The notes under the pieces were generated by a model. It did not search any database and was not told the origin of the DNA. It saw nothing but the letters and a program-made list of their open reading frames with translations. DNA of 64,000 bases from NCBI RefSeq assembly GCF_037975245.1, contig NC_092569.1, positions 37,136,168-37,200,167 on the forward strand, given 5' to 3'. Positions 16,201-62,055 of this stretch are shown one piece after another (position 1 is the stretch's first letter; each line of letters begins with the position of its first letter). The position numbers and the translations under genes are program-made. Origin of the DNA: Apostichopus japonicus. Its lineage: Eukaryota > Echinodermata > Holothuroidea > Aspidochirotida > Stichopodidae.

Positions 16201-19200
16201 TGAATCTCTTGCAATTTTCACGAGGATACTGAAAATATTTCACTAAAAAAGTTCCTTTGAACCCTCATATTAACGGTAGAAGTGATATGTTCTCATTACA
16301 GCAATGACAGATTGGCTCTGGCATTGTTACGATTGAGACAATTGATTGATGCTGTAGGTAAAGGCTCCTGACTATAGCAATGTCAATGAAGAATGTGGTC
16401 CTTCCCAGCTCACAGCAAAGAGAATTAACACTGTGGCATTGATTACTTTCATGAACATATTTGATACTATGATGATATTTGATATATTCTGCACAGGAAA
16501 TGTCAATGGTGTCTCTGGCGTTCCTTACTCTCATGAGGAATAGAAAGCGATATTAGTGATTTCTTCTCTTCATGGCAAGACAGTGGTGTCTCGGGTAATT
16601 GGTACCCTCAAGGGAATTGATCGTTATATAAGTGATGTCTTCTTCTCCGGGCAGGACAGTGGTGTCTCGGGTGAAGGTTACTACCCCCTCACCCACCCCC
16701 TCCCCCTCACACCAGGACAACTAGGTCAAGGTGACTCTGGTGAACGTTTATCCAGGTATAACTAATACTTTCATGCTACGAGTGCTATGTCAGCGACTTC
16801 GGTCAGCTTGCGGCTTTGATAAGCCAATGAGGCTTCTTCGCGAGTTCCTGCTTACAGGAGTATCTAATATACATACATACACGCGCACACACACCCATAC
16901 ATACACACATACATACACGCATACACACACATACATACGTCAACTATGATCTGTATCTCTCTACAATGGCAAGGATGTTGTTCCTGTGAATATATAGCGC
17001 CAAACAAACGATGAAATAATTCTCGTAGCGCTTAACATAATAATAACAATTATAACATATATGCTTTGGTGAAAAGATGTTCTTCTATATATGAAAAATG
17101 ATCTTTTTCTCTCCACAATGGCAAGGATGTTGATCCTGTGATGTGTTCGTCTTCATATGCTCTTTCCACCGTGTCAGGATGTTGATCCTGTAGTGTGGTC
17201 GTCTGCATATAAGCAATGACCGAGTATTAAAAGTGTTGTTATTAGTTCCTACCCTCTAGACACTGGAGCTATAACATAACCTTCATAGGATAGACAAAGT
17301 TGACTGTTGACACTGATTCCATAAACAATGTAAGTGTGACATTGCTTTAAAAGCAATCGGTGATAAACCTGTCTTGTCTGAACCTGACTAACTGACTAAC
17401 TTGTAGGTGCCTCATGATAACCAAGAGCGTATACTGTTGCTATTGCATTATCATCATTCAGTTGTTACAAGATATAACTGTAACGTAGAGCTGAGCGTAT
17501 TCAAAGTATTTGTCCATGCATAGATGCAATTGCGTCGCCAGACATTTCAATCTTGGGGGGCACTGGGGGGCCATCGCTTAATTAAGGGGGAACAATGTTT
17601 GTTTGTGAATGCCATCGTGGGAGAGGGGTCTAAGGGGAAATTTTTGATTAATAAAGGGTCCTTAGATGCAATCTTGTGCTATATTTTGCAAACTTGAAGT
17701 AACTTTATGTTCAAGAATTTTCGGGCTTAGTCGATATTAATGTTTTAATTGAGGCAGATACAGTTATTCTTTGGAGTATATTTTTAATACTACAAATCGC
17801 ATCTGGGGGGGGGGGGCACGATTTTTTGGGAGGGCACGTGCACCCCCAGGCCACCCCCTGGCGACGGCACTGCATAGATGCGAGGATCCCTTGGATGGCA
17901 ACCCCGTTCCATACTTACCACCACAAGTCTCGCTGTAATCTGGGCAGCAGTCACCGTATGTATTACATGCTGTGTTACATTGACAGGACTTTGAAGAATC
18001 CAGAGCAGCATTACACCTGCCTACACAAGTATCTCCTGTGGGTGCCTGCGTTGTGGTTGTGGTCGTCGCACCAGTTGTGGAGGAGGTGGTGGTAGTGGTT
18101 GTAGTGCCTTACAAGAAACAGGGATATCACATGCGTTAAAGGGGCAATTCGCCGTTGAGTCAAATGTCATTTAAGTTTCTATTCCTATCATTTAGTTTTT
18201 ATCAATTGAAAACAATACCTATATCAATCACAATTGTCAAGGTTGAAATTTGTAAATGTTTTAGTTGGACATTTCAATTCTTCTCTTGCTGGAATGCAAA
18301 GAGATAGAATATGTGATGTTTCCAAAATACATTATTTTGAATGATTCTTGAGTTAACACTTCATTTTCTCCTTTAAGCTTAAAACAAGGAATGTCCGAGT
18401 AGCCTACGGGAGACGGATGTGCCATCATTGTGTTCAGCAAAACCGGCAGTGTGACCGAACTTGTCCATCGTGGGGCTGACTCAAAGCCTTCTTTCTCTGT
18501 CCTCATGAGATGACATTATCTTCCAGCCATAACGCATAATCACACCCACACCACACAGTCCCATTTCGATGACGGATTACATGTGGAGCTCCACCAGTTA
18601 CAATAAATCATAAACAATAAATCATGTTAGAAATTTAAGTTAAAACATTGCTGAAAAACGAAACCCTTTCATTTTCACATGGCATGCACCGTGCCTTACA
18701 CCAGGGAGTTGTTATGGAACAACTCCCTGCTTACACAGACGTGTGACCATGTATCACAACCCGGTTTGATACAAATCAGATTGTAATAGGGATCCTCGTC
18801 AACCAAGGGCCGGATAGCTCGTGTGGTAGAGCAGCATTGAACTTTAAATCTTGAGGTCACTGGTCCAAATCTCGTTATAACTTTCTAGTTTGCTCTTTCA
18901 AAATTAGAAACATTGATTTAACTAAATGTAATAAACCAATTTGCGACAGGCCCAAATTTCCCTTAATGAATTCCTTCGTGAAAATCAATACATTGTTATA
19001 CTGCAAAAATAGATACGCTGTCATATGAATATACTGTTAGAAATAAAAGCTGCAAGACATATATCAACTCGAAATAAATATATTGATAGAAATAAATAGT
19101 ACTAGTATAAATACTACTAGAACTATAAATAAATTGCTACAAATAAATATTGTAACGGAAATGTCATATCCCTTTACGTCAATTGGTAGTGTAACATTAT

Positions 19201-22200
19201 CGTCATGCATTGAGCGTTCCCTCAGTTTTACCCATCAGTGGCGCCCGGAAGTCTGTAATTGTATCTCTCCCAAAATAGGTGTAGAGCTGTTGCGAGTTGC
19301 AGGTGGGCACAGCCAATGACAATGTAACCCCTGTTTGTTTGTTTGTAAAACTCTGTCGAATCAGCACCCGAATTTGGAGATGTTTCCCATTGTTAGTGGT
19401 AGCGCAGATTGTTTTATTAGTTTTAGCTCACCACGCTCACGAGGTATTCCGAGATTTGCCTCTGACCATGGAGCTATATATTCTCGTTTAGAGCTCCATG
19501 CTCTGACGAAGAGAGAACTGAGAGAACCGCCTATTTTCTGTAAGTCGCCACCACTAAACTGGTATATTTGTTCTATCACACGATTATGTACTTGGCATGA
19601 CTTCTAGGTTTAATTTTTTGTCTTGGTAAAGCTAAAATTCGGTATCTTTGGGTTGACGGGATATTGTTCATACAACCAGGGAGTTGTTATACAACTAGGA
19701 ATTTCTGAGAAAACTATCGTTGCGCTACGTGCATTTAAGCAGGGAGTCTCCCCGATTTAAGTAACAAGAAGCGAGGGTATACTTTAAAAGAGGCATAATA
19801 TTTGTTGACAATTTCTATATGGGTTCGATAATTGTGATTTCGACTTCACTAGGAGGCTCACAAACGTTAGACCATATTTGTAATGTGGACGAATGTCTAG
19901 TTTATATCGTTCATGTTTGTTCAGTCAACACAAGTAGTGCGAGAGCAGTGGCGTAGCTACCGGGGGGGGGGCGTGGGGGTGGGCGACAGCCCCCATGAAA
20001 GCTTGTCGCCCCCCAGTCGCCCCACTGGGATTTTGGGTGTCGAAAAAAAAATTACATGTGCGAAAAATATATCATTTGTCTGAGTGGTCTCGAATCTCCA
20101 TGATGACCACTCATGAACGACCCTTCGACCGCGGACCGGCAGTAGGCTATAGTTGCTGAAAAAACCTGACGTGACATAGCGCATAGGCCGAGAAGACATC
20201 TACAGTAGTCGCACTGTACTGAAAACACATGTTAACGACCGTCGAATTATATAATTCCTGCTCTAATAAAAACAGGGGCGTAGCCAGGGGGGTGGGCGAA
20301 GGTGGAGACCGCTCCTCCCCCCCCCCCCCTTGAGCATATTTTTTGTACGTTTTTATGATATCGCTAGTAATTTCAAGATAAAAAATGCTTAAATGCAACT
20401 TGCAATGCCTGGGAAGTGCCATTTCCAACGATCGGGAGACATTTTCGGCCAAAATTTTCTGATGCGCTTCGCGCCAATACATGGTGGCGCTACGCTTAGA
20501 TAGTTTCCAATGCCGAATCTACGGCTCTGATAATTTGCCTACAGGTTTGCCCTCCCTTCGGAAATCCCTCTCTATACTGCACCTGAATAAATACACAAAC
20601 AGCCAACCAGGATCACAGTGCACATTAACTGATCTTTACCTCCATGTTTCCAGGTACTGAAATGCCAAGAAGATGTTAATAGGTAAAAAATGCTGACATC
20701 ATACAGGTTTCTCACATCATTGCTCGCGTCATTGCCTCGATACTCTGTTACATTTTCAATCGGGTTTTCACTTCTGGGACGTGCCCTGATGCTCTTAAAA
20801 CCGCTAAAAAAAAACAATTTTGCAAGACGATACTATCGCTGAGAACTACCGGCCAATCAGTCTATCACCCTAATAATATTTCAGACGCAATCTTTGATGT
20901 CAGTTTTACATATAGTTCGGTCATTTCAGTTATGTTACTTGCCTGAAAGCCCAGTCAATCTTTCCTTATTTTCCACGTGCAATTTGCATATTTGTCGGAA
21001 AATGTCAATTCCGGTGTCAAACTCACAAAAGATATGTCATGGTATTTCAAAGTAACTTACCAAACTGTTTTTTCTTTCTATTTCACTAAACTATTTGATG
21101 ACCATATCAAGACATGGGATCTCAAAATAAAGGATGTTGAGAAAACTTTACAGCAGCTTACAAGGCCTGGGAAGTGTCATTTCCAACGATCTAGGAGGCC
21201 TTTTTAGCTAAAAATTTTGGGGACGCTGCGCGCCAACTCATGGTGGCGCTCCGCTTAGATAGTAACAAGACGCCCTCCCAGGAAATGGTCAAGCCCCCCC
21301 CCCCCACTGAAAAAATCCTGGCTACGCTACTGTGCGAGAGTGTTAGTGTCAACCAACGCAATATTATCCTTCATTTGTAGATACATTTACCTACGTAGTG
21401 GTTCAGTTGTGTCGAAAAGAGATGTTTTATTTAGTGATCTATAAGCTGATAAACATGTTTAACTCTTTTAGCCTGTAGTTGAGTGAGTCCCAACAAAATC
21501 TCCTGTGTGCCTCTTACGAGTAGGGTTAACTGCGATAGTTGCGTAATTGCGTAACTGTGAAGAAAATTAATTTACCATTTCTTAACTGTTTGTCTCTGTA
21601 AAATTTGTCAATGCCGTAATCTGTGGCAAAAATCATATGACAGTGAATCATCGATCGAATGACTACATCAATAAATTAGAGATCAACCCCAGTCATCAAC
21701 CTCTTTTCCGATTTTTGTCTTGATATGTGTTAAAGATTTTTATTAGTTCAAACAGCCGGAACTTCCTGAGACACTGGTCAACGTTACAATATACTGGTGG
21801 TAATAAACTCACTGCTGTCACTAAACTTTAAACTATACTATAAAATAAACTGCTAGACATAAATAAACTGCTAGAAGTTAGATAGCCTGTATAGCAATAT
21901 GTTTGATAGTGCGCCAGTTAGAAGCCACAGTACCTATCGTGTAAGCAGGGATCATGCCCCAGCTATATTCGATGCAACCAATCACGTTGAGAACAAATGT
22001 TCGTTTGTCAGAATTTTTAAAAAGTTTAAATGCATAGTTTCAAATGTAAATTTCTCTCTGCCTGTTAAACAGATATCGATATAGAGTGTTGTTTTGTATT
22101 TTTCTGGTTAACTATCATTAATACGAAAACCGCTGGACTATTCTTTTAACGTGAAATGAGAGCAAATCCTACACTGCTGTAATAACTTAGACTACATTAA

Positions 22201-25200
22201 GACGATGGCAACACGATCATGATGAATCTATTGAATTACAATTAAAAAACATAACTCATAACTGATATTTAACTGATATTTAAACTAACCACTACAGGTG
22301 CTAGTGAAATCCGAGCAACAGTCACCGTACGTTGAGCAATCAGCGTCGCACTGGCATGTTTTGGTAGCATCTGGTGACGTGCCACATCGTCCGACACAGT
22401 TATCTGGAGCTCCAGAGCCACCTAACAGAGTAAATTTCAAGAAACGGTTATTAACATCTCAGGCCACAGGTGTGCTGCCTTTCACACTTAAACTGAGTAG
22501 GCCTACTCTATCACATCTACCATACCGACAAACAATATATATTGCATATTCATTTTCCAGTTTAATAACTACATATGGGTGAGCATGGGAGGGATGGTGT
22601 CCATTGTCAGGAGGCTACACATATCCGTTACATAAATATTCCATTCCGTAACCAAGTTTATTGTCTTTCTTATTGATGAGTATTAACGCGTATTCTCATT
22701 GATACCTATTGAGTGTCAATAAGCAGCAGAATACAAGATACCTATTGAGTGCCAATAAGCAATAGTCTACATGGCACCTTTACAAGATATCGCAGCCTAT
22801 ACTAATATATGCCTATCATTAGGATCATTTGATATCATTAGCATCTCTTCGCTCAGTACGTATATCTTTCTATGGAACGCACAGAGGGAAAATCCGTTAA
22901 AAACGTCCTGATTTGGAACAACAACCATGTACTCTTTAACAACGTGATTTGTAGCAACGACAATGTAAAAATCGCAACAATGTCCTGATTTGTAGCAACG
23001 GATATGTAAAAGTCGTTAACAACGTGAAATTTGTACTGAGCAACGGCGCCCTTCAGAAAGTTTTCAGAGGCGTGGCCTACAATGGTTATGATCTACGCAT
23101 GTTCATTTAAAAATTATCGGTGCTAGGCTGGTCGACCTGGGAATAGTGAAAGTTACTGCTGTAGTTTAGCAATATAGTAGGAATTCTAATGAGCGAATGT
23201 TCAGGAAAGCTTTAGCTTTTCTTCTTAGATGCCCATTACTCCAGCCATCTCGGAATTGGTCAGCCCTCTGTTTATTAGTGATTTCAAGTCCTCTCGATCC
23301 GAGGTCATTTATGTCAGGCCAATGTGCTAAACTATCAGCTTAAATCATATCTAAAGTCGGTGCTAAACAATGTGTAGGATGACTGCATCAGCATTACGTG
23401 ATGAACGTAAAGCAACATTTGCCGCAAATAGAAATTTCAAAATGAGGGCCACGCCTCTAAAGTTTTCAAAGGACGCCAATGGAAAATGTTTGCCCTGTAA
23501 GGCTTATTTTAGGTAGTTCGGGAACGGTAAGCCCGGCCTTACACTGATACCGTAGAACCGAGCGTGAAACGTGAAATAATCAGGAAAAGCGGGTACTGCA
23601 TAATATATGTCTTCTTTTTATGATTCAGGATAAAACTGTAACTTGTAACTTTAGATAATTAAAATGTAAAGAGCCCGAAGACTACAGACGAAAATATAAA
23701 TAACGGAGCCTACTGTTCTACGTCTGTAGACTTCGCGAGATAAACTTCAACTCCTCGATAAATCTTTAAGAAACACTTAAACCCCTGATTCCAAAATAAC
23801 AAATTAAGACGCGTTGCACAGGGCACACGCTCTGCCCTTGAACCCGATTGGTGTAAACTTTTAACTCACCCCTTACCAAACTCTTGATTGGTTGAGTGCC
23901 AACCTGATATGCAGATGAGCATATGCAAATGGGCACTCAACCAATTTGAACCAGTTTGGCTGTCTTCCAACCCCGAATCATTTAAAACAAAAGATACGCT
24001 TCTAATAGTGCGTGATTTATATCCCGCCACACCACAGCGCAAACCACCAATGCGCGAGCCATGGGTGACGTCATAATGACAATAACTAGAATACGCTTCA
24101 CAATAACAATAACTAGAATACGCTTCACAGCCCCATTGATTGTATTGACGCCTATTTGTATTTGTGGCCATTGCTACAAATCACGTTGTTAACGATTTTT
24201 AAATCCATGTTGCTACATATCCGGACGATGTTGGCATTGTTGATCGTTGCTATAATTGACGCCTTTGTTACAGTGTTACGTTCAGCCCTAACTGTTTAAG
24301 AAAGATGACGTCATACTTACAAAAACTCTCGTAGTCTGAGCAGCAGTTTCCGAATGAGGAACAATCTACGTTACATTGACACGAGTGTCTATTGTCGTAG
24401 TCCAAGCACCCTCCAAAAGCTTCACATGTATCTTAAAGAAAACAAAGCAAACAAAGCAAAACACATTAAATGGCTAGGAGCAATTCGTGACTTTAATGGT
24501 AGTCTCCTAACAACCATAGCGCGATTGTCACAATTGTACAAACTAAAAGATCTTTATGAATTATGATAGAACCATCGTTGATTGGAGAATGACCTACTGG
24601 CAGAAATGAGTCTTTACTTACCACACAAACCATAGTAGTCTGAGCAGCAGTTTGCGTAGCCTAGCTACTGACAGGAATGAGTCTTATACTTACCGCACAA
24701 ACCATAGTAATCTGAGCAGCAGTTTGCGTAGCCTAGCTACTGGCAGGAATGAGTCTTTACTTACCACACAAACCCTAGTAGTCTGAGCAGCAGTTTGCGT
24801 AGCCTAGCTACTGACAGAAATGAGTCTTTACTTACCGCACAAACCATAGTAGTCTGAGCAGCAGTTTGCGTAGCCTAGCTACTGGCAGGAATGAGTCTTT
24901 ACTTACCACACAAACCATAGTAGTCTGAGCAGCAGTTTGCGTAGCCTAGCTACTGACAGGAATGAGTCTTTACTTACCACACAAACCATAGTAGTCTGAG
25001 CAGCAGTTTGCGTAGCCTAGCTACTGACAGGAATGAGTCTTATACTTACCGCACAAACCATAGTAATCTGAGCAGCAGTTTGCGTAGCCTAGCTACTGAC
25101 AGGAATGAGTCTTATACCTACCGCACAAACCATAGTAGTCTGAGCAGCAGTTTGCGTAGCCTAGCTACTGACAGGAATGAGTCTTTACTTACCACACAAA

Positions 25201-40635: not shown

Positions 40636-41818
40636 TTACAGCCACCTCATGTACAAACCATGAAGTCCTATATGCCCCTATCAGCCACCTCATGTACAAA
40701 CCATGAAGTCCTATATGCCCCTACCAGCCACCTCATGTACAAACCATGAAGTCCTATATGCCCCTACCAGCCACCTCATGTACAAACCATGAAGTCCTAT
40801 ATGCCCCTACCAGCCACCTCATGTACAAACCATGAAGTCCTATATGCCCCTACCTGCCACCTCATGTACAAACCATGAAGTCCTATATGCCCCTACCAGC
40901 CACCTCATGTACAAACCATGAAGTCCTATATGCCCCTACCTGCCACCTCATGTACAAAGCATGAAGTCCTATATGCCCCTACCTGCCACCTCATGTACAA
41001 ACCATGAAGTCCTACATGCCCCTACCTGCCACCTCATGTACAAACCATGAAGTCCTATATGCCCCTACCAGCCACCTCATGTACAAACCATGAAGTCCAA
41101 TATACCCCTACCAGCCACCTCATGTACAAACCATGAAGTCCTATATGCCCCTTCCTGCCACCTCATGTACAAACCATGAAGTCCTATATGCCCCTACCTG
41201 CCACCTCATGTACAAACCATGAAGTCCTATATGCCCCTACCTGCCACCTCATGTACAAACCATGAAGTCATATATGCCCCTACCAGGCACCTCATGTACA
41301 AACCATGAAGTCCTATATGCCCCTACCAGACACCTCATGTACAAACCATGAAGTCCTATATGCCCCTGCTGCCCACCTCATGTACAAACCATGAAGTCCT
41401 ATATGCCCCTACCAGCCACCTCATGTACAAACCATGAAGTCCTATATGCCCCTACCTGCCACCTCATGTACAAACCATGAAGTCCTATATGCCCCTGCTA
41501 CCCACCTCATGTACAAACCATGAAGTCCTATATGTCCCTGCTACCCACCTCATGTACAAACCATGAAGTCCTATATGCCCCTACCTGCCACCTCATGTAC
41601 AAACCATGAAGTCCTATATGCCCCTGCTACCCACCTCATGTACAAACCATGAAGTCCTATATGCCCCTGCTACCCACCTCATGTACAAACCATGAAGTCC
41701 TATATGCCCCTACCAGCCACCTCATGTACAAACCATGAAGTCCTATATGCCCCTACCAGGCACCTCATGTACAAACCATGAAGTCCTATATGCCCCTGCT
41801 GCCCACCTCATGTACAAA
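40636..41818. repeat. 43-bp minisatellite, about 27 copies
   Basis: Units of CACCTCATGTACAAACCATG, AAGTCCTATATGCCCC and a variable TACCAGC/TACCTGC/TGCTACC end. The array stops 60 bp before a candidate DSCC1 poly(A) signal. Confidence 0.95.
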
Positions 41819-42211
41819 CTCTGTACATTTGACCCTTCCTATTCTTTAAGCATGTACATCATCCTAGTCTCCTTCACCTTTATTATTATTATGTCAAACA
41901 TATCACATGTCTGTACTTGACCAATCATCATCCTCAGATTGTCTTATATATGTCTGCAGCTCACAGACTAATGGAAGCTAGTCAGTTCAATTCATTGTTC
42001 TCTGCCAATGGCTCCTTATCAGATTTCTGTACATCCCGTGGCACTGACATAGCTTGGTCTGCTGAATTCAATCAAATCTTCTCTTTTCCTTCCATCCCAT
42101 GTACTACTGGAAGCAAGTCCACTGATTTCTTTCTTCCCTCCTTAAGACTCCCAAACACATCCACTACTAGAATTGAATCCTTTGAACTCTTTGTATTCTT
42201 CATGAACCAAG

Positions 42212-45300: not shown

Positions 45301-47780
45301 GTCTACACTGAATGGATATCTACACTGAGTGGATATCTACACTGAATGGATATACACTGAGTGGATATCCACACTGAATGGGTGTCTACACTGAATGGAT
45401 ATCTACACTGAGTGGATATCCACACTGAATGGATATCTACACTGACTGGTTGTCTACACTGAGTGGATATCTACACTGAATGGATATCCACACTGAGTGT
45501 ATATCCACACTGGTATATCTACATCTTTCCATTGTATTAGTAGTGAATTGCAAGAACGTCCATGTCCTGAGTCTGACTGTCCACTACATTACAATGTACA
45601 CTACAAATTGCATCACCAATCATACACATTGTTACATGTATTGTAATTTAGTAAACCTACATGATTGTAGTTACATTAAATGTACTTTAGTAGTTCACTT
45701 AGGTTTGACTATAAAGTCAAATACACAGACTGTTAACTCTGTTCCTCAGATCATGGAGCTATAAACCTGGGTTTATAGCTCCATGCTCAGATGCAACACA
45801 AAACTCAATGGTAAAACAAGATGTTGATGGCTTCAAATGACGACAGTTTACAAATTTGTCAAGGACAAATGATATTGAATTCCATCCAAGGATACTCTAT
45901 TGTTAATAAGAAGTTAGAAGGGAATGCTTGGGTTGAGCATGGAACTATAACCGATTATAGCTCCATGGGTTGAGTGATAAGATTTTATAACACAACAGAC
46001 TGAAATGAAGGCCTGCACTCAGGAGCTGACATCATCATCTCTCAAAGCCTTAAAGGAGCATTCCAGAGTCTTAGCATATTTTAAAGAAAACCTCAAAAGC
46101 TATAGAAATATTACTAGAAACTGATGTACAACATATCAAGACTAAGCTTCAGCCTAACGTAGTAACACTGGCAACATATCAAGACTAAGCTTCAGCCTAA
46201 CGTAGTAACACTGGCATACCTTAAAGGGTCATTCCATATCAAATCACCAAATTTTGGAGTATTTTGTAGTTCCACATCTTTTACAAATTCCAAAATTTAT
46301 TGTTTGATTGGAACACCATGAAATAAGCATATTCTGAAATTTCTGTTGCATTGCTTCAAAATTGGCCAATTTATCATACTTTGAAATTCCGCAATTTGTC
46401 GCCACCCTGGCATTTTCTTGACTTTTGAAGTCTCATTTCTCAGCGGTTAAACATCCTACTACCTTTCTATTACAGATGCCTATAGAGTCCATCCCATAGA
46501 ACAGGAATACAAACAATTAGGCTACAAAAACATAGTCTTGTGTAGTTAGGTCAACTTAAAAATGTCAAAATATTCAACAACAAAAAAATTACTACAAAAT
46601 GTGCTATTTTTAGTGATAAATTGCTCCTAAACCATTGCTTCAGTGTACTTGATTCTTTCAGAGGTAATTATGTCTAGTACAAAACAATACAAAATAATGA
46701 TTACAATGCTTTCCTATAATATATTTGCAAGTTGTGCAGCTCTAAAGTTGCTATTTCATGCTGCGAATCAGCATGAGGAAGGAGTTTTATGCAATTTTTT
46801 AAACCATGTTAGAGCTGTCAGGATTTTACACTTGAATAATAAGTATAAAGTTCTTACCCCTTAACAAATTTCAGGGTTGTAGCTTTTCTCGATATTAATT
46901 TATGAAGTTGTTAAGTTGATTGGATGTACAAAAGAGGTCGTCTTATTTTTGAGTGACACTCTAACACTGACATACCTTACTGTACATTTTACTGAGTGGC
47001 ACTCTAACACTGACAAACCTTACATTTTACTGAGTGACACTCTTACACTGACATACATTTACATTTTACTGAGTGACACTCTAACACTGGAATACATAAC
47101 ATTTTACTGAGTGGCACTCTAACACTGGCATACATAACATTCTACTGAACTTGTGACATGCTAACACTGGCCTACATTATGTTTACTGAGTGGCACTCTA
47201 ACACTGGCATACATAACATTTTACTGAGTGACACTCTAACACTGAAATGTACATTTTACTGAACTTGTGACATGCTAACACTGACATACCTTACATTTTA
47301 CTGAGTGACACTCTAACACTGACATACATTTACATTTTACTGAGTGACACTCTAACACTGACATACATTTACATTTTACTGAGTGACACTCTAACTCTGA
47401 CATACATTTACATTTTACTGAGTGACACTCTAACACTGACATACATTACATTTTACTGAACTTGTGACATGCTAACACTGGCATACATTATGTTTACTGA
47501 GTGACACTCTAACACTGACATACAGTACATTACATTTTACAGAGTGACACTCTAACACTGGCATACATAACATTTTACTGAACTTGTGACATGCTAACAC
47601 TGGCATACATTATGTTTACTGAGTGACACGCTAACACTGGCATACATAACATTCTACTGAGTGACACTTCAAACTGCTAATAATATATTTGCCCATAGTT
47701 ACCTTTAATTGATCTTCATGAGTGCTCATTCCATCTGGAACACTTTGTTGCCAAACTTGAAGAAATTCTGATAAATTAAA
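42212..47780 (-). CDS. DSCC1: DSCC1 (DCC1), C-terminal four exons; 5' part not in recognisable form here
   Basis: Four exons of 78, 86, 63 and 112 nt join in frame to give the last 112 residues of sister chromatid cohesion protein DCC1. Recognised blocks in order: LQVWQQSVPDGM and DQLK; GLALVDR; LPENERERFNYLF; KDRWTMDDIYPYIE; KIGALLQKYA; and YNSKRPVT at the C terminus. Known for the family: DCC1 joins CTF8 and CTF18 in the alternative clamp loader CTF18-RFC, which loads PCNA and aids cohesion; this C-terminal winged-helix region contacts DNA polymerase epsilon. The exon before LQVW is not in the 48 kb region, where a 12.7-kb satellite begins instead. Three of the four introns or flanks contain minisatellites, one made of the penultimate exon's end. 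A candidate AATAAA lies 41884-41879, about 330 nt after the stop. Identification is firm; the upstream gene structure is not. Confidence 0.9.
42490..43054. repeat. 39-bp minisatellite made of a DSCC1 exon end plus donor, about 13 copies
   Basis: On the minus strand each unit reads TTTATCCCTACATTGA followed by GTAAGTAATC: the last exon bases and donor of the penultimate DSCC1 exon, which abuts the array at 43055. Copies are almost identical. Confidence 0.94.
43055..43117 (-). CDS. DSCC1: DSCC1 penultimate exon (RWTMDDIYPYIE)
   Basis: 63 nt, phase 2 to phase 2, acceptor CTCACAG, donor GTAAGT. The last about 20 exon bases plus donor are repeated some 13 times in the 39-bp array immediately downstream on the transcript. 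Confidence 0.92.
43612..44790. repeat. Diverged dispersed repeat with three internal units, in a DSCC1 intron
   Basis: Starts CTAGAGCACC and ends AGCATGAGCTAAAAAC. Three units of about 170 bp share TTTGACCYCAAAT, a 'GTCCAAGTTT' block and GGAGCAATTTG/GGAGCGGTTTT words. This resembles a repeat common in marine invertebrate genomes; no class assigned. Confidence 0.4.
45009..45094 (-). CDS. DSCC1: DSCC1 exon with the GLALVDR block
   Basis: 86 nt, phase 0 to phase 2, acceptor TTCTCAG and donor GTGAGT. Encodes GLALVDRASKPQVVSLF and continues through LPENERE. Confidence 0.9.
45170..45512. repeat. 17-18-bp minisatellite
   Basis: About 20 imperfect copies of CACTGAATGGATATCTA, upstream of the DSCC1 exon at 45094 on the transcript. 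Confidence 0.85.
45752..45785. mobile_element. Ultrashort palindromic insertion, 34 bp, 7-bp target duplication
   Basis: Perfect 16-bp arms CATGGAGCTATAAACC with a 2-nt centre; flanked by CTCAGAT at 45745-45751 and 45786-45792. Confidence 0.8.
45938..45967. mobile_element. Ultrashort palindromic insertion, 30 bp, 7-bp target duplication
   Basis: Arms CATGGAACTATAA and TTATAGCTCCATG (one mismatch) around CCGA; flanked by GGTTGAG at 45931-45937 and 45968-45974. Confidence 0.78.
45975..46940. other. DSCC1 intron, no element identified
   Basis: A 46-bp direct duplication (CAACATATCAAGACTAAGC) occurs at about 46131 and 46172. Otherwise nothing supported. Confidence 0.4.
46945..47670. repeat. About 39-bp minisatellite, 18-19 imperfect copies
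   Basis: Units carry TTTACTGAGTGACACTC and TAACACTG, with a second type reading GAACTTGTGACATGC. It begins about 35 nt beyond the donor of the DSCC1 exon at 47703. Confidence 0.88.
47703..47780 (-). CDS. DSCC1: DSCC1 exon with the WQQSVPDGM block
   Basis: 26 codons, phase 0 at both ends, acceptor TTTTTTTACAG and donor GTAACT. A minisatellite of about 39 bp starts some 35 nt past the donor. Confidence 0.9.
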
Positions 47781-61374: not shown

Positions 61375-62055
61375 GTACTGTACTGGCTATAAACCAGAGT
61401 GTCAATACTCCCAGAGAGTTACTGGTACAAGCTATAAGCCAGAGTATCAATACTCCCAGAGAGTTACTGGTAATAGCTATAAACCAGAGTATCAATACTC
61501 CCAGAGAGTTACTGGTACAAGCTATAAACCAGAGTGTCAATACTCCCAGGGAGTTACTGGTACTAGCTATAAACCAGAGTATCAATACTCCCAGGGAGTT
61601 ACTGGCACAAGCTATAAGCCAGAGTATCAATACTCCCAGAGAGTTACTGGTACTAGCTATAAACCAGAGTATCAATACTCCCAGGGAGTTACTGGTACAA
61701 GCTATAAGCCAGAGTATCAATACTCCCAGGGAGTTACTGGTACTAGCTATAAACGAGAGTATCAATACTCCCAGAGAGTTACTGATACTAGCTATAAACC
61801 AGAGTGTCAATACTCCCAGGGAGTTACTGTACTAGCTATAAACCAGAGTATCAATACTCCCAGGGAGTTACTGGTACTAGCTATAAACCAGAGTATCAAC
61901 AATCCCAGGGAGTTACTGTACTAGCTATAAACCAGAGTGTCAATACTCCCAGAGAGTTTCTGGTACTAGCTATAAACCAGAGTGTCAATACTCCCAGGGA
62001 GTTACTACAGTACTAGCTATAAACCAGTGTCAATACTCCCAGGGAGTTACTGCAG
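61375..62055. repeat. 45-bp minisatellite, about 15 copies
   Basis: Units of AGCTATAAACCAGAGTATC, AATACTCCCAGGGAGTTACTG and GTACT. The 45-bp length leaves several frames open on both strands. Confidence 0.94.

Follow-up and report, generated by a model that had tools for sequence, protein, structure and literature searches.

In a 64,000-nucleotide stretch of the genome of the sea cucumber Apostichopus japonicus (NCBI RefSeq assembly GCF_037975245.1, contig NC_092569.1, positions 37,136,168 to 37,200,167 of the forward strand; hereafter the window), it was found that six inserts of 12, 15, 28, 30, 34, and 34 bp are each flanked by exact 7-bp repeats. With a probability of about 0.92, such inserts are end-joined excision footprints ("scars") of cut-and-paste transposons belonging to the P superfamily. 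The variable junctions, a stop of the retained sequence at 18 or 19 bases, and the presence of one-ended remnants point to a large departed transposon rather than a fixed mini-element.

Probable Scars in the Window

Scar 1 is a 28-bp insert (CAGGGAGTTGTTATGGAACAACTCCCTG) at positions 18702-18729 (18695..18736 with its CTTACAC repeats) and has ends of the family termed F1. Scar 2 is a 34-bp insert at 19467-19500 (19460..19507 with CTCTGAC repeats), whose reverse strand starts with CATGGAGCTCTAAACGAGAA and has one mismatch against the end of a 9.45-kb source element, F4c, described below. Scar 3 is a one-ended 12-bp remnant (CAGGGAGTTGTT) at 19677-19688 (19670..19695 with ATACAAC repeats), and scar 4 is a 15-bp insert (CAGGGAGTCTCCCCG) at 19740-19754 (19733..19761 with ATTTAAG repeats). 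The original prediction, made from the letters of the window, had named these four inserts, and their coordinates and exact 7-bp repeats proved correct at each site. Two palindromes of 34 and 30 bp complete the set: scar 5 at 45752-45785 (45745..45792 with CTCAGAT repeats) and scar 6 at 45938-45967 (45931..45974 with GGTTGAG repeats).

Could such repeats arise by chance? At random window positions, an exact 7-mer match at such spacings occurred in 81 of 200,000 draws. When the window was scanned blindly for hairpin-ended inserts between 7-bp repeats, 43 hits were obtained, five of them scars and 38 in tandem arrays, while five Markov-shuffled windows gave 0, 0, 0, 1, and 1 hits. An anchored scan added six hits in a 45-bp tandem array (61376-62052), one at 41540, and one at 24209.

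Genome-Wide Excess and Target Duplications

Palindromes were counted over 671.6 Mb in 35 contigs, with the reversed pattern as the control. The strict CAKGGAGYT palindrome of 18-30 bp has 2,677 matches versus 0 for the reversed pattern, and a looser palindrome of 14-44 bp has 5,119 versus 184. For 45-75 bp the counts are 470 versus 101, a number of the listed rows being two adjacent inserts. The 15-bp insert CAGGGAGTC departs from the consensus CAKGGAGYT, which had been proposed for the insert ends, and a further family that is common in the genome starts with CATGGAGGT.

The target duplications were assessed in 43 inserts in 40 regions, taken from the first 50 listed places of the 14-44-bp search; of the other seven places, one overlaps a tested place, and the remaining six, five of which are clustered copies, were not sampled. 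Two of the sampled loci (L056 and L059) are one duplicated site. The 7-bp flank repeat is exact in 21 of the 43 inserts and matches at 6 or 7 of 7 bases in 32, versus 1.4% and 4.3%, respectively, for permuted flanks. Exact repeats of 5, 6, or 8-12 bp were found in none of the inserts, and an exact repeat of 4 bp in one. The consensus over the 21 exact target sites is GTNNNAC, which is symmetric by construction because both strands were counted. In this sample, both target duplications are kept around the joined ends, as in an excision footprint.

Empty Sites in Paralogous Repeats

Scars 2-4 are hosted by a copy of a dispersed repeat (19142..19898), which has long matches of 70-88% identity to other copies. 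From 331 candidate copies, 40 were scored, and 16 other listed places were fetched and aligned. At the site of scar 2, all 15 fetched copies that reach the site lack the insert and have a single 7-mer (mostly CYCTGAC). The site of scar 3 is empty in all 13 fetched copies reaching it, and the empty copies are 19 bases shorter (12 + 7) between landmarks, except for L092, whose left landmark differs. At the site of scar 4, ten of the 13 reaching copies are empty, while three have a 13-bp insert between ATTTAAG repeats. These three are the best matches to the window repeat. Since they carry the insert between the same repeats, the scar 4 insertion probably predates the split of these repeat copies.

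A similar case was found in a second repeat, in which three of seven aligned copies have a 31-bp insert between GTTGAAG copies, while the other four have one GTTGAAG-like 7-mer (at most two bases off) and no insert. The filled query was matched unbroken by 3 of 40 scored copies. The empty sites in paralogous repeats confirm insertion at staggered target sites with a 7-bp duplication, as originally proposed.

Source Elements and Their Transposases

Which elements left the scars? The genome contains 45 matches to the P-type RNase H domain (PF21787), and near one of them lies an end, CATGGAGCTA.., which continues well beyond scar length. A genome search with a block of this end revealed elements of 4.46-4.80 kb. 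Exact 7-bp duplications (GTTGAGA, GTAGAAC, TTCTTAC, and GTTAGAC) flank all four that were fetched, and both ends of one of them (L019) are identical over 33 bp. A long open reading frame (ORF) was not found in these four elements; L020 has none of at least 120 amino acids, and L019, L021, and L022 have one of 107 amino acids each. They are internal deletions of a coding element of the F4 family, located at C17:16770475-16781120 (10,646 bp; contigs are numbered with C and fetched loci with L), which has the 7-mer GCCCAAC at both ends. A second coding element, F4c, lies at C17:20911684-20921137 (9,454 bp) and has GTATGCC at both ends. In each coding element, one flank had been known beforehand, and the opposite end, which was fetched afterwards, has the same 7-mer. 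The inverted repeats are about 33 bp long, with one or two mismatches in the coding elements. In summary, exact 7-bp duplications flank all six elements with both ends fetched (4.5-10.6 kb). The original prediction had suggested looking for full-length elements that share the ends of the inserts and their 7-bp duplications; such elements are present for two end families, F4 and F4c.

The ORFs of the coding elements are 673 and 635 amino acids in length and match PF21787 (E 2.2e-26 and 3e-27), and the 673-residue ORF matches the structure of the Drosophila P transposase (6p5a, E 5.5e-7). The helix-turn-helix model PF12017 is below the cut-off in both. Neither ORF has a THAP match, a separate THAP exon not having been searched for. 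The GTP-binding domain PF21788 is likewise absent from both ORFs, which stop a short way past the first portion of RNase H, no search of further exons having been made; it was found in other P-like ORFs of the genome (L011 and L012). With a P-type RNase H domain, short inverted ends, and 7-bp duplications, the source elements belong to the P superfamily.

Instead, both source ORFs have an N-terminal match to the RAG1 importin-binding region (PF12560), at L016:3657-5675 on the minus strand (E 9.7e-11) and at L015:2548-4452 on the plus strand (E 1.4e-9). A third P-type ORF, at L014:2585-4459 on the plus strand, has an N-terminal PF12560 match below the cut-off (E 0.0017) and likewise lacks a THAP match. 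In their RAG1-like N-terminal match, the source ORFs recall the N-RAG-TP element of Aplysia. In the available text of PMC8355894, that element is discussed for the origin of RAG1.

Not every approach to the element ends succeeded. Paired ends were absent in ten loci of 3.3-3.4 kb around the first P-domain matches, for which wider pieces were needed, and a search of eight 8-kb pieces for 7- or 8-bp duplications with inverted ends gave only weak, chance-like pairs. A comparison of L014 with L110 yielded no element ends, as both lie within a larger duplication of about 98% identity. These two loci (on C3 and C17) share a stretch of more than 7 kb with 98% identity, and each has a P-type RNase H match in a 628-residue open frame. 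Both copies carry the same scar, which indicates that the scar predates the duplication.

Retained End Length

The F4 element end reads CATGGAGCTATAAACAGAAGGAGAAAA. Retention was assessed at sites anchored on its first 15 bases, in the first 100 of 811 sites, which comprise seven element ends and 75 distinct non-element rows. Within these 75 rows, the match stops at base 15 in 25 rows, 16 in four, 17 in 11, 18 in 31, 19 in three, and 20 in one, and the rows stopping at 15 include other end families (..CCTGGG and ..CGAG). The F4c end is one base longer than that of F4 before a common AGGAG motif. Its 44 sites (38 distinct, two of which are element ends) stop at base 16 in 12 cases, 17 in five, 18 in three, 19 in 15, and 20 in one. 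These counts place the stop just before AGGAG, at base 18 or 19, and not at base 17 as in Drosophila, which had been expected at first. With some exceptions, the retained end is thus no longer than the presumed staggered cut of 18 bases for F4 and 19 bases for F4c.

Twenty of the 26 distinct F4 rows without a visible second end were fetched; five bases of the other end are present in one of them (L130). An exact copy of the left 7-mer was found within 21 bases in five of the 20 (swapped control, 0.26%), and a match at 6 or 7 of 7 bases in eight (7.9%). This class of one-ended remnants covers the 12-bp insert of the window, which had been regarded as a possible half copy.

In the 42 distinct sampled inserts, the retained parts of the two ends overlap in 24, abut in six, and are separated by extra bases in 12, in a tally that allows one mismatch per side and is descriptive only, since the ends of F1, F2, F3, and F5 were read off the scars.

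A Proposed Mechanism for the Scars

The following course of events may explain the inserts. A large element (the copies seen measure 4.5-10.6 kb and have inverted ends of about 33 bp starting with CATGGAG) would enter a site resembling GTNNNAC and duplicate 7 bp of it, a duplication that is present around the F4 and F4c elements. The first bases of the other end families are CAGGGAG or CATGGAG. The transposase would then cut one strand at the element terminus and the second strand further in, after 18 or 19 bases, where GA meets AGGAG, a position suggested by the sharp retention stop in the scars. What remains at the donor site would be two copies of the 7-mer, and a single-stranded tail of 18-19 bases from an element end would be attached to each. 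End joining may trim, anneal, and fill the tails, and the expected product is the 7-mer, at most 18-19 bases of one end, at most 18-19 bases of the other, and the 7-mer again, a near-palindrome of about 12-38 bp. Some scars may later have been copied inside other repeats. While the anatomy of the scars is directly visible, the repair pathway is modelled on that of Drosophila, and a polymerase-theta-like end joining may have made them.

Several observations weigh against this explanation. No site was found with the full element in one copy and a scar in another; a search for element, scar, and empty alleles, starting from a flank common to 14 element ends (L024-L037), led to a larger nested repeat and no allele series. 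In the sample of 43 inserts, 11 match at five or fewer of the seven flank bases, which could be due to age or trimming, and 12 of the 20 one-ended remnants likewise match at five or fewer and have no clear repeat. The tally of overlapping and abutting ends is circular for F1, F2, F3, and F5. Some inserts are too long: the ends CATGGAGCTATAAACCTGGG (..CCTGGG, which also occurs at 45752) retain some 20 bases, and six listed 40-bp inserts (CAGGGAGCTGTTACTCTAACGTTA..) at C1:1238968-1310568, a span of 72 kb, exceed twice the 18-19-base limit. In the one that was fetched (L048), six of the seven flank bases match. These overlong inserts could be due to templated extra bases or to a different end family. 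Finally, a full F1 element was absent from the 100 listed of 1,897 anchored places, and three candidate F1 places (L086-L088) were fetched without an element being found.

The alternatives fare worse. It is highly improbable that the inserts are ultrashort elements, consisting of two fused terminal repeats and moved as such, which was the central idea of the original prediction. Some sequences do recur often (25- and 28-mers of F1), and exact duplications flank 21 of the 43 inserts, which speaks for this idea, but lengths and junctions vary from site to site, the retention of known ends mostly ceases at 18-19 bases, and the 7-bp repeat also surrounds five of the 20 remnants without a visible second end. 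Moreover, several of the recurring 25-mers share flanks beyond the insert (..GTACAACTGC and ..ATCTCAGGTC) and therefore look copied inside other repeats. The inserts are not a family of miniature inverted-repeat transposable elements (MITEs) either. The copies of a MITE family share internal sequence and a fixed structure, whereas here the junction point differs between copies and neither internal sequence nor fixed structure was found.

Did all of the scars come from one superfamily? It is very unlikely that only the F4 and F4c scars derive from the P superfamily and that those of F1, F2, F3, and F5 derive from an unrelated superfamily with a similar cut geometry. This would be in keeping with the lack of a full element for these four families, of which F2, F3, and F5 had no dedicated search, but the families agree in their first seven bases (CAKGGAG) and, within the sample, in their 7-bp duplications, and one shared 7-mer can be occupied by scars of two families (L124 and L125, see below). 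Capture of transposon-end fragments as filler at ordinary staggered breaks, where the element never resided, would account for the 12 of 42 distinct inserts holding bases that fit neither end. It is scarcely credible as a general origin, because a length that stays at 7 bp, a preference for GTNNNAC, and inserts that start at the first base of the element fit insertion by a transposase. As for chance palindromes or assembly artefacts, L050, with 0 of 7 flank bases matching, and a few others in the sample look like chance, and the reversed pattern has matches of its own, but for the whole set the controls (5,119 versus 184 matches and 21 of 43 exact flanks versus 1.4%) make this explanation negligible.

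End Families Seen So Far Only as Scars and Apparent Re-Use of Scars

If the inserts are excision footprints, what do they tell about the end families? A source was found for F4 and F4c, while F1, F2, F3, and F5 have been seen so far only as scars. Among the 100 listed F1 places and all 77 places of another search, no longer F1 end recurs, save for one pair on C17 that has a longer run in common but lies 115 bases apart. Of the four F1 ends in the candidate places L086-L088, L086 is a one-ended remnant with the exact 7-mer after 17 bases, and the others show nothing. Full F2, F3, or F5 elements did not turn up, no dedicated search having been made.

Two loci have scars of different families around three copies of one 7-mer. 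At L124 (C3:9998200-9998560) the three copies are exact (GTGCAAG), and at L125 (C2:21837550-21837900) one of three CTTATAC copies is a base off. Since two families flank three copies of the same 7-mer, the duplicated target was apparently used again. In addition, about 16 units of 35 bp are repeated in tandem at L122:71-631 (C2:31519220-31519780). Every unit is made up of a 28-bp scar and a 7-mer, and some units are inverted. This array is a scar turned minisatellite.

I tentatively suggest a wider picture, to which I would give somewhat less than an even chance as a whole. Thousands of P-type excisions may be readable in this genome, and at least four end families (F1, F2, F3, and F5) may persist mainly or only as scars, like "ghost" transposons whose cut sites and host end joining can be deduced. 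Such scars may be targeted again by other families and may seed tandem repeats, and their sources may form a branch of the P superfamily that cuts 18-19 bases inside the end and carries a RAG1-like domain at the N-terminus.

Comparison with Known Systems

Excision scars of P-type transposons are known from engineered fly loci. As far as the available text of the following sources goes, the cut made by the P transposase in the 5' strand lies 17 bp within the inverted repeat of 31 bp, and either homologous repair or end joining then closes the break at the donor site (PMC7776569). End-joined sites in Drosophila begin and end with the duplication and have between the two copies at most 17 bases from each side, with or without extra bases in the middle (PMC2895639). 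The sea cucumber scars resemble these junctions in that the duplications flank part of each inverted end, with microhomology or extra bases (PMC2895639), and differ from them in having 7-bp instead of 8-bp duplications and 18-19 bases instead of 17. The Drosophila junctions were made in a cross, whereas here thousands of scar-like inserts are standing in an assembly.

Galileo, a member of the P superfamily in Drosophila, has 7-bp duplications with the consensus GTANTAC (PMC4168063, available text), and in this respect the sea cucumber sources resemble Galileo rather than P itself with its 8 bp. Galileo differs in its long, internally repetitive ends (PMC3573991, available text), those of the sources being about 33 bp, and in having a THAP domain (PMC4168063), for which the two source ORFs scanned gave no match. 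Zebrafish Pdre2/THAP9 also belongs to the P superfamily and has ends starting with CAT and subterminal inverted repeats, but its duplications are 8 bp and its ends 13 bp, according to the available text of PMC10983969.

Inverted ends and target duplications are also features of MITEs. The present inserts are far shorter, however, and have no internal sequence, fixed length, or consensus.

Genome-wide sets of natural P-type footprints were not found among the listed papers of the open-access literature, as judged from titles and the beginnings of abstracts, with few subscription papers covered. The original prediction had stated that no described family has this form. Indeed, none was found, but the form itself is known as the repair junctions of Drosophila P elements, as far as described in the available text of PMC2895639. 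P-type excision footprints and Galileo-like 7-bp duplications are therefore already known, and what appears new, as far as seen, is a standing set of scars on a genome scale. The same applies, as far as seen, to the stop at 18-19 bases, to end families represented so far by scars alone, and to a RAG1-like N-terminus in place of a THAP match, no separate search having been made for each.

With thousands of scars standing in one genome, the natural balance of excision and repair could be measured, the place where a transposase cuts could be read from sequence alone, and families that are otherwise traceless would come to light. Inserts of 12-40 bp would probably escape repeat annotation that relies on consensus families. 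In addition, the combination of a P-type catalytic domain with a RAG1-like N-terminal part in the source transposases bears on the origin of that part of RAG1.

Other Observations

At L113 (C13:18282700-18284750) and the 14 loci L024-L037, F4-type ends adjoin a 73-bp flank, and this flank is in many places found again, inverted, about 1.3-1.8 kb away. This arrangement is a composite or nested element.

Two hits of the anchored scan in the window deserve a brief description. At 24209 on the minus strand, GTAGCAA repeats lie 32 bases apart around CATGGATTT.., where inverted ends were not seen; this is possibly a portion of a local repeat. The hit at 41540 lies in a 43-bp minisatellite of 27.5 copies (40639-41819). 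Its unit consists of TACAAAC and a 36-bp part with CATG at both termini and imperfect inverted ends, and one may speculate that this minisatellite, too, originated from a scar.

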